Source: an uncultured Prevotellaceae bacterium (GTDB taxonomy: Bacteria > Bacteroidota > Bacteroidia > Bacteroidales > Bacteroidaceae). From it: DNA of 36,027 bases. Of the stretch, positions 19,290 to 20,831 are shown one piece after another. The stretch covers positions 1-36,027 of the forward strand of contig CAMZAE010000018.1 of NCBI GenBank assembly GCA_947304115.1, in the 5' to 3' direction. Under the pieces are notes generated by a model. It made no database searches. It had not been told where the DNA came from and saw nothing but the letters and a program-made list of their open reading frames with translations. Position 1 is the stretch's first letter. The number at the start of each line of letters is the position of its first letter. The position numbers and the translations under genes are program-made.

Positions 19290-19320
19290 AACTTTCAACT
19301 TTCAACTTTCAACTTTCAAC
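19290..19320. repeat. Heptamer microsatellite AACTTTC (about four copies)
   Basis: Four or more perfect copies of the seven-base unit AACTTTC stand back to back between the two divergent promoters. The -33 position of the metK promoter falls inside it. Confidence 0.8.
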
Positions 19321-19337
19321 TAATTTTCTTACCTTTG
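19307..19337 (+). promoter_or_regulatory. metK promoter
   Basis: TACCTTTG at 19330-19337 is the -7 box; TTTC at 19307-19310, 19 bases upstream, can serve as the -33 box and is supplied by the heptamer repeat. A start near 19344 places the aptamer candidate about ten bases into the transcript. Confidence 0.7.
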
Positions 19338-19354
19338 CAGCCGCAAACAAGAAA

Positions 19355-19408
19355 TGTGGACAGATTTGGGCTGCTTGCAACCACAGTAAAAAATGCTAAA
19401 ACGAGGAG
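19355..19408 (+). promoter_or_regulatory. SAM-II/SAM-V-like riboswitch candidate in the metK leader
   Basis: Arm TGTGG (19355-19359) pairs with CCACA (19381-19385). The loop carries GATTTGGG (19363-19370) and GCTTGCAA (19373-19380), and the 3' tail AAAAAATGCTAAAA (about 19388-19401) ends just before SD GAGGAG (19403-19408). GATTTG, GCTTGCA, CCAC and GCTAAA in this order are the recognisable blocks of the SAM-II pseudoknot as I remember it. The normal P2 partner just before GCTAAA is not clear. As an alternative, GGGCT (19368-19372) can pair with AGCCT (19409-19413), and CTTG (19374-19377) with CGAG (19402-19405), which would hide the SD. The location before metK strongly supports SAM sensing. 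Confidence 0.6.
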
Positions 19409-19414
19409 AGCCTC

Positions 19415-19474
19415 ATGTTTCCTCACGCATTTGTACCCAACTCTTTCCCATACATTGTATTAATTAATAATTAA
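19415..19474 (+). CDS. Small upstream ORF in the metK leader (19 residues)
   Basis: Starts six bases after the GAGGAG that ends the riboswitch candidate and reads MFPHAFVPNSFPYIVLINN, then TAA. A good SD at ideal distance and position straight behind the aptamer suggest it is the first translated unit of the transcript, with metK 100 nt further on. No Met or Cys run is seen that would make it an obvious attenuator peptide. It could be a non-functional frame. Confidence 0.35.
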   Translation: MFPHAFVPNSFPYIVLINN

Positions 19475-19560
19475 GAATGAGAAATTAAGAAAGAAGAATG
19501 AACATCAATAGCAGCTTCCAAAGCATTCAATTCTTAATTCCTAACTCTTAATTCTTCATT
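19469..19560. repeat. Imperfect AT-rich inverted repeat before metK
   Basis: AATTAAGAATGAGAAATTAA and following (19469-19502) is imperfectly complementary to TTCAATTCTTAATTCC and following (19527-19560). The RNA could form a long weak stem that ends 14 bases before the metK ATG. It belongs to the AATTAAGAA-type spacer family seen at other gene borders in this window. Confidence 0.55.
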
Positions 19561-19574
19561 AAAACAAAAAGACT

Positions 19575-20831
19575 ATGGGTTATTTATTTACATCGGAGTC
19601 TGTCTCCGAAGGCCATCCCGACAAGGTGGCCGATCAAATCAGCGATGCTGTCCTTGACAAACTGCTTGCCTTCGATCCCGATTCGAAGGTGGCTTGCGAA
19701 ACACTCGTGACAACAGGACAGGTTGTCCTGGCTGGCGAAATCAAGACAAAAGCTTACGTTGACCTGCAGCGCATCGCCCGCGAAGTCATCAACCGCATCG
19801 GCTACACCAAGAGTGAATACATGTTCGAGGGCAACAGTTGTGGCGTGCTCTCTGCCATCCACGAGCAAAGTGCCGACATCAACAGAGGCGTTGACCGCAC
19901 CGACCGCGCGACGCAGGGAGCCGGCGACCAGGGCATGATGTTCGGCTATGCCACCAACGAGACCGACAACTACATGCCGCTGAGTCTCGACCTGGCTCAC
20001 CGCCTGCTCCAGACACTTGCAGACATCCGTCGCGAAGGCAAGGTGATGACTTACCTTAGACCTGACTCGAAAAGTCAGGTCACAGTCGAGTACAGCGACG
20101 AAGGTGTGCCGCAGCGCATCGACACCATCGTGGTAAGCACTCAGCACGACGAGTTCGACACCGACGAAGCCATGCAGCAGCGTATCGCCCGCGATGTCAA
20201 GGAAATCCTCGTGCCCCGAATGCTCGAAGGCATCCGCTCGGAGCGCATCCGCAGACTCTTCGATGAACACATTATATATTATGTAAACCCGACAGGCAAG
20301 TTCGTCATCGGCGGACCGCACGGCGACACAGGTCTCACCGGGCGCAAGATCATCGTTGACACCTACGGCGGCAAGGGCGCACACGGCGGTGGCGCATTCA
20401 GCGGCAAGGACCCTTCGAAGGTTGACCGCTCGGCGGCTTATGCTGCCCGCCACATCGCCAAGAACATGGTGTCGGCAGGCGTGGCAGACGAAATGCTCGT
20501 ACAGATCAGCTATGCTATCGGTGTGGCAGAACCCGTCAGCATCTTTGTCGATACCTACGGCAAGAGCCATGTCAATATGACCGACGGCGAGATAGCCGAG
20601 AAGATAAAGGCAATCTTCCCGCTCACCCCCTATGCCATAGAACAGCGTCTCAAGCTGCGCAACCCCATCTACGAAGAGACGGCAGCCTACGGCCACATGG
20701 GGCGTGAACCGCGTATTGTAACAAAGCGTTTCGAGTCGCTCTATCAGGAGACAAAGGAAGTGACCGTCGAACTCTTCACCTGGGAGAAGCTCGACTATGT
20801 GGAACAGGTAAAGAAGGCCTTCGGCCTATAG
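19575..20831 (+). CDS. metK: S-adenosylmethionine synthetase
   Basis: 418 residues; the longer Bacteroidetes form (E. coli has 384). It makes SAM from methionine and ATP in the cytoplasm as a tetramer with Mg and K ions. Visible signatures: TSESVSEGHPDKVADQISDA at the N-terminus (methionine/ATP site), the motif GAGDQGMMFGYA near 113-124, and GGGAFSGKDPSKVDRSAAY near 270-290. The C-terminal TWEKLDYVEQVKKAF is family-like. It is the first gene behind a leader with a SAM riboswitch candidate and a small uORF, so feedback by its product is likely. The LOG, DUF4271, hemD, rnpA and yidD genes follow on the same strand. Confidence 0.97.
   Translation: MGYLFTSESVSEGHPDKVADQISDAVLDKLLAFDPDSKVACETLVTTGQVVLAGEIKTKAYVDLQRIAREVINRIGYTKSEYMFEGNSCGVLSAIHEQSADINRGVDRTDRATQGAGDQGMMFGYATNETDNYMPLSLDLAHRLLQTLADIRREGKVMTYLRPDSKSQVTVEYSDEGVPQRIDTIVVSTQHDEFDTDEAMQQRIARDVKEILVPRMLEGIRSERIRRLFDEHIIYYVNPTGKFVIGGPHGDTGLTGRKIIVDTYGGKGAHGGGAFSGKDPSKVDRSAAYAARHIAKNMVSAGVADEMLVQISYAIGVAEPVSIFVDTYGKSHVNMTDGEIAEKIKAIFPLTPYAIEQRLKLRNPIYEETAAYGHMGREPRIVTKRFESLYQETKEVTVELFTWEKLDYVEQVKKAFGL

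Follow-up and report, generated by a model that had tools for sequence, protein, structure and literature searches.

A candidate expression platform for SAM-II long-loop aptamers in Bacteroidia metK leaders: a downstream strand that matches its own aptamer and, within one genus, covaries with the start codon

Introduction

A common model of a translational riboswitch is one in which the RNA hides a Shine-Dalgarno sequence (SD). In the compact SAM-II riboswitch from the Sargasso Sea, the pseudoknot sequesters the SD, and in S. meliloti metA, translation from an AUG lying 74 nt further on depends on the SD inside the SAM-II riboswitch (passages of PMC9373788). The SAM-II long-loop family, RF01726, is listed for Bacteroidetes and as marine (an excerpt of PMC2864571). 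Ribosomes of Bacteroidia reportedly do not recognize SDs (parts of PMC9976891); therefore, how a riboswitch acts in this phylum becomes a question.

Here, we describe the metK leader in a 36,027-nt stretch of DNA from an uncultured Prevotellaceae bacterium (hereafter the window, i.e., the whole stretch, to which all coordinates refer) and compare it with the metK leaders of relatives. The aptamer family is already known; what appears to be new is a putative expression platform for SAM-II, made of a strand complementary to the aptamer (anti-aptamer strand) and a pairing over the metK start codon (start clamp).

Results

A SAM-II long-loop aptamer precedes metK

The metK gene of the window begins with the ATG at 19575, 174 nt from the end of the aptamer motif GCTAAA. 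The promoter and aptamer features upstream of it are as follows.

19330-19337, + strand: TACCTTTG, a TAnnTTTG element, Bacteroidota-type promoter -7 element (from sequence)
19350-19409, + strand: SAM-II (long loop) aptamer (RF01726 match)
19355-19359 and 19381-19385, + strand: aptamer P1 stem, TGTGG / CCACA (sequence and RF01726 alignment)
19363-19368, + strand: aptamer core GATTTG (sequence and RF01726 alignment)
19373-19380, + strand: aptamer block GCTTGCAA, containing TTGCAA at 19375-19380 (sequence)
19393-19400, + strand: aptamer 3' block ATGCTAAA, with GCTAAAA at 19395-19401 (sequence)
19575-20831, + strand: metK, methionine adenosyltransferase (TIGR01034, 514.6 bits, cut-off 309.4)

The element at 19330, named as the promoter in a preliminary description of this DNA, is of the TAnnTTTG form, which we take to be the promoter type of the phylum Bacteroidota; 68 of the 76 same-genus loci carry such an element at most 40 nt before P1. 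Tandem repeats of the CAACTTT type occupy 19290-19321, directly upstream of this promoter. Two same-genus genomes have a second, diverged metK-like gene (G031:C5:12947-14200 and G085:C55:23644-24894), 67% and 64% identical to the window's MetK, respectively.

By covariance-model alignment, the aptamer belongs to RF01726: the match scores 54.8 bits (cut-off 44, E 5.3e-8), spans model positions 1-60 of 60, and places P1 together with the conserved blocks GAUUUG, UUGCAA and AUGCUAAA upstream of a SAM/methionine gene, metK. The genome assembly of the window (80% complete) has no second match to this family. All sequence strings named in the preliminary description were found (GATTTG, GCTTGCAA, GCTAAAA, GAGGAG and the P1 arms among them), and its proposal of an aptamer like SAM-II or SAM-V stands for the SAM-II type and falls for SAM-V, whose model gave no match at E ≤ 10 in 19250-19650. 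RF00521 (SAM_alpha), against which that description had proposed to check the leader, scored 23.2 bits, below its cut-off of 36, so that RF01726 is the matching family. As for the pseudoknot helix P2, its core pairs are possible by eye between UUGC at 19375-19378 and GC at 19395-19396 plus AA at 19398-19399, in blocks that hardly vary in the genus. The new P2 variant that had been suggested, GGGCT with AGCCT and CTTG with CGAG, is not conserved: among the 70 same-genus long leaders, 14 have a CGAG no more than 10 nt away and 3 an AGCCT no more than 30 nt away. The metK leader aptamer is predicted to bind SAM.

Of the 150 relatives, 111 have the family; within the same genus, it is present in 74 of 90 genomes. 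Among the 16 same-genus genomes in which it was not found, five had no metK that we could find and eleven had metK leaders (L182-L192) showing no SAM-II aptamer by eye; these eleven leaders suggest that some members of the genus may have lost the aptamer or replaced it.

For the comparisons below, we used three sets of leaders. First, the 76 same-genus loci, including the window, left 70 long leaders after removal of five short leaders and of L101, which lies at a contig end; L063 and L094 carry two copies of the GCAT motif described below, and the first was used in several analyses. Second, 26 loci from the survey of relatives and 80 named records made up 106 that lay outside the fetched same-genus set; 50 of these had the core motif, and L009 and L024 were dropped since no metK start was found, leaving 48. 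Third, a held-out set was drawn from 47 fetched loci, of which 33 were usable, three being without a metK that could be found and eleven without the core motif upstream of metK; excluding two long loops and near-duplicates from the 33 gave 26 representatives.

GAGGAG is the arm of a covarying hairpin

The preliminary description read GAGGAG as the SD of a 19-codon upstream open reading frame (uORF), whose SAM-controlled translation would be relayed to metK.

19403-19424, + strand: covarying hairpin, arms 19403-19409 and 19418-19424, loop 19410-19417
19415-19474, + strand: 19-codon frame, the proposed uORF, rejected here; stop codon at 19472-19474

In the window, all elements of this reading exist: the ATG at 19415, the 19-codon frame and a metK start exactly 100 nt past its stop. 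The comparison of relatives leads elsewhere. GAGGAG (19403-19408) is the 5' arm of a hairpin, and the ATG lies inside its variable loop, which ranges from 1 to 95 nt in the 70 long leaders (median 11). A stem of at least 4 bp can be formed in 69 of the 70, compared with a mean of 33 and a maximum of 44 when the 3' arms were permuted with equal freedom of register (1000 permutations). In a fixed register, all four pairs were present in 41 leaders (permuted maximum 22, 2000 permutations), and sliding this register by -2, -1, 1 or 2 nt left four pairs in 5, 7, 1 and 0 leaders. On the metK tree, we counted 17 compensatory changes on both sides of the hairpin (permuted mean 4.9, maximum 12, 300 permutations), as well as 32 changes to an unpaired state in the fixed register; ten of the latter were at the first pair, which showed no double change. 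Some of the leaders unpaired in the fixed register pair in a shifted one. The arms thus change together with their partners, e.g., GAGG/CCTC, GACA/TGTC, CAAC/GTTG, GACG/CGTC and GAGA/TCTC in different relatives.

The aptamer recurs in these leaders, and the SD and the uORF are not conserved with it. An SD-like 5-mer (AGGAG, GGAGG or GAGGA) within 14 nt after GCTAAA occurs in 17 of the 70 long leaders. In 33, there is an ATG somewhere on the way from the aptamer to GCAT; three leaders have one that shares the frame of the window's uORF and opens at least five codons, and only in two of them, the window and L080, does an SD-like stretch come before it. When leaders were compared by eye, the stretch from GCAT to ATACATT was seen to go out of frame through indels of 1-2 nt (L059 and L038 compared with the window). 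We therefore rejected the uORF with its SD. Control of metK through uORF translation from this SD, or through an SD that acts over a distance, the way it does in S. meliloti metA, has in its favor the good spacing between the SD-like stretch and the ATG in the window, the similar frame in L080 and the metA precedent itself (passages of PMC9373788); however, the counts above, the covariation of the supposed SD as a hairpin arm, the indels, and the reported blindness of Bacteroidia ribosomes to SDs (parts of PMC9976891) make it very improbable. Instead, what the leader targets appears to include the metK start itself, with no peptide as intermediary. GAGG-like hairpin arms can be misread as SDs in this phylum, which calls for caution.

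A downstream strand matches its own aptamer

Two elements complementary to the aptamer follow the hairpin.

19427-19430, + strand: GCAT, complement of ATGC at 19393-19396 and, as GCA, of TGC at 19376-19378
19433-19451, + strand: anti-aptamer strand, imperfect pairing with 19354-19374 (P1 5' strand, GATTTG and loop)

The two targets of GCAT form the pseudoknot core of the aptamer, each supplying one strand. GCAT is present in all 70 same-genus long leaders, followed by T in 59, and in truncated folds it was paired to the aptamer with a mean probability of 0.82. By eye, two metagenome-assembled genomes, L163 (Bacteroidaceae RGIG8884) and L171 (Bacteroidales RUG14560), appear to share the platform of hairpin and GCAT.

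The anti-aptamer duplex of the window has a predicted energy of -15.5 kcal/mol, which taken alone is not significant against shuffles (p 0.075). Across the genus, the duplexes had a mean z of -1.36 against shuffles, 31 of 70 reaching p ≤ 0.05; for the non-redundant tails, the mean z was -0.96 and 5 of 25 reached that level. In truncated SAM-free folds of the 70 leaders, 51% of the strand was paired to the aptamer compared with 33% for shuffled strands, and the real value was the higher in 68. Swap tests, in which partners were exchanged among leaders, gave 19/5000 for all 70 leaders and 519/5000 for representatives within the genus. Since the aptamer hardly varies within the genus, we moved the swap test to leaders from elsewhere.

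In the 48 leaders outside the fetched same-genus set, the whole leader matched its own aptamer with z -5.8 (0/5000 swaps). The signal persisted for the part from +14 (z -5.3, 0/5000) and from +22 (2/5000), and was absent from the first 14 nt alone (1641/5000), indicating that it is not just the pseudoknot; the aptamer loop compared with the first 14 nt downstream was weakly matched across other leaders (111/5000). Swap controls with metK codons, with DNA upstream of the aptamer and with reversed aptamers were null in this set. Against shuffled leaders, the mean z was -1.24, compared with 0.07 for reversed aptamers. When the aptamer was split, the signal weakened, for the part from P1 to GATTTG (589/5000) as well as the loop plus TTGCA (11/5000) and, in a second run, for the loop alone (654/5000) as well as GATTTG plus the loop (6/5000); we therefore take the duplex to span both parts.

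The held-out set gave the same result, with z -6.9 in the 33 leaders and z -6.5 in the 26 representatives (0/5000 in each), and its controls were null (metK codons; reversed aptamer, 809 and 657/5000). A version of this set that missed the minus-strand loci and contained the two long-loop aptamers gave 26 and 20/5000 for the reversed control. The 26 representatives share no 25-mer with the 48 earlier leaders. In these representatives, the best match begins 15-42 nt after GCTAAA (search from +14), and L219 has 18 pairs with its own aptamer. By these sequence comparisons, a strand downstream of the aptamer matches its own aptamer in leaders beyond the fetched same-genus set.

The same strand covaries with the metK start codon in the genus

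The minimum free energy fold of the leader brings the end of the anti-aptamer strand into a helix with the metK start.

19447-19452, + strand: CCCATA, 5' strand of the clamp, overlapping the anti-aptamer strand (MFE fold, genus covariation)
19574-19579, + strand: TATGGG, 3' strand of the clamp, spanning the metK start codon (MFE fold, genus covariation)

For pairing with the metK start, each leader's own tail outperformed the tails of others in all 70 genus leaders (z -8.2, 0/5000), and the result held in 31 genus representatives (z -5.0, 0/5000); a control region at metK +30 to +47 was null in the genus. CCCAT is found in 46 of the 54 leaders whose metK starts with ATGGG, compared with 2 of the 16 others, and the base after CCCAT complements position -1 in 34 of these 46 (A/T in 24, T/A in 10), both counts being uncorrected for relatedness; the second base after CCCAT complements position -2 in only 18 of 46. 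Two ATGGG leaders, L033 and L050, lack a good clamp. Against composition-matched shuffles of single sequences, the clamp had a median p of 0.32, with p ≤ 0.05 in 5 of 70; since such shuffles are mostly not significant, it is the swap test that carries the clamp. Outside the genus, the clamp was weak (60/5000; 95 and 202/5000 in the held-out set, with controls of 893 and 541). Within the window's genus, the strand covaries with the metK start by these sequence tests.

This covariation bears on two alternatives that keep the same aptamer and strand. The chief rival has a transcriptional output: SAM binding would free the C/U-rich 19433-19452, and Rho would load on it and stop transcription before metK. 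Rho loads on C-rich, G-poor RNA, and over the 30 nt after GCAT the genus tails are 35% C, 36% T and 10% G. Many SAM-II representatives have putative intrinsic terminators ahead of the gene (portions of PMC1273637). In the window, a consensus scan for a GC-rich hairpin with a U tract between the aptamer and the gene found none in 19250-19650; we thus discarded an intrinsic-terminator riboswitch, and a transcriptional output would need a factor such as Rho. However, the strand is C/U-rich because it is complementary to a purine-rich segment of the aptamer, and Rho loading leaves the covariation between tail and metK start in the genus unexplained, so that we regard it as unlikely, if well ahead of the uORF. 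The second alternative makes the downstream strand a module for folding or stability, which protects the leader or tunes its affinity for SAM; metK output would then depend mainly on mRNA decay. A parallel exists in S. meliloti, where high SAM stabilizes the mRNAs of metA and metZ while metA translation falls (passages of PMC9373788); such a module, however, explains neither the covariation of tail and start nor a pairing that tracks each leader's own aptamer, and we consider it improbable.

One further element lies between the tail and metK.

19455-19567, + strand: AT-rich inverted repeat, whose right part recurs in the genome

With 40 of 73 candidates scored, the genome yielded at least 39 more partial matches to the repeat at E ≤ 0.01, of which 30 fall on its right part, and by eye the repeat is absent from most same-genus leaders. 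We therefore rejected it as a regulatory stem; it is probably a passenger that lengthens the leader and not part of the switch. A stretch resembling it by eye occurs in L038, whose metK is 94% identical.

A proposed relay from the aptamer to the metK start

Putting the two pairings of the strand together, we propose that the SAM-II long-loop aptamer and the anti-aptamer strand relay SAM binding to the metK start, with neither an SD nor an upstream peptide, and we give this proposal an even chance. Without SAM, 19433-19451 would fold back on 19354-19374, opening P1 and blocking the pseudoknot, with GCAU (19427-19430) and the hairpin (19403-19424) nested inside the fold-back and the metK start free. 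With SAM, P1 and the pseudoknot would form and the anti-aptamer strand would be released, and CCCAUA (19447-19452) could then pair with UAUGGG (19574-19579) over the metK AUG to lower initiation. Since the strand competes with P1 for the P1 5' strand and CCCAU is common to the strand and the clamp, the three helices would be mutually exclusive in series. The net effect would presumably be feedback OFF control of the enzyme that makes SAM.

When the aptamer was locked in constrained RNAfold calculations, the mean accessibility of the start went from 0.33 to 0.29; it went down in 55 of 70 leaders, by more than 0.1 in 12, and up by more than 0.1 in three. The window itself showed no fall in these calculations (0.33 to 0.35). 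The clamp forms in both states at equilibrium, and a switch would thus need co-transcriptional order or kinetics.

For the SAM-II riboswitches of metK across Bacteroidia, we more tentatively suggest a relay of three strands, in which the P1 5' strand and the loop pair either in the aptamer or with the downstream strand, and the strand released by SAM clamps the start; we hold this to be plausible, at somewhat less than an even chance.

Discussion

Dozens of metK leaders have a strand that fits their own aptamer, which provides a definite mechanism of output that experiments can test; as the switching strand is conserved, mutating and rescuing it is easy. If true, the relay to the metK start would give riboswitches an output suited to a phylum in which ribosomes take no notice of SDs. 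We found no description of an anti-aptamer strand or a start clamp for SAM-II in the portions of the open-licence literature consulted, supplements aside.

The closest described family is RF01726 itself, which the window resembles in its full-length match above the cut-off and in its metK context. The 60-position model, however, ends at 19409: its last bases fall in the hairpin, and everything farther downstream (GCAU, the anti-aptamer strand and the clamp) is outside it. With the S. meliloti metA SAM-II riboswitch, the window shares a GAGG and an AUG just past the aptamer and a true start far downstream. Translation of metA depends on the SD, and there is a Rho-independent terminator in the interval (passages of PMC9373788); the GAGG of the window, in contrast, belongs to a hairpin arm whose sequence differs among relatives, and the scan of 19250-19650 turned up nothing like a terminator. 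The compact Sargasso Sea SAM-II has a similar aptamer core, and its pseudoknot acts directly on the SD (passages of PMC9373788); in contrast, the metK start of the window lies 174 nt after GCTAAA. In five same-genus loci (L022, L034, L037, L084 and L093), the metK AUG comes 5-6 nt after GCTAAA, leaving no room for the hairpin or the anti-aptamer strand. These short-leader genes possibly represent a direct-occlusion form and would make a useful natural control.

Finally, the proposed relay resembles P1-switching riboswitches, in which a strand of the expression platform pairs with a P1 strand in the absence of the ligand. In that scheme, SAM-II reaches its platform by a distal pseudoknot (sections of PMC2258182), whereas here the P1 5' strand together with the loop is the predicted switching strand.
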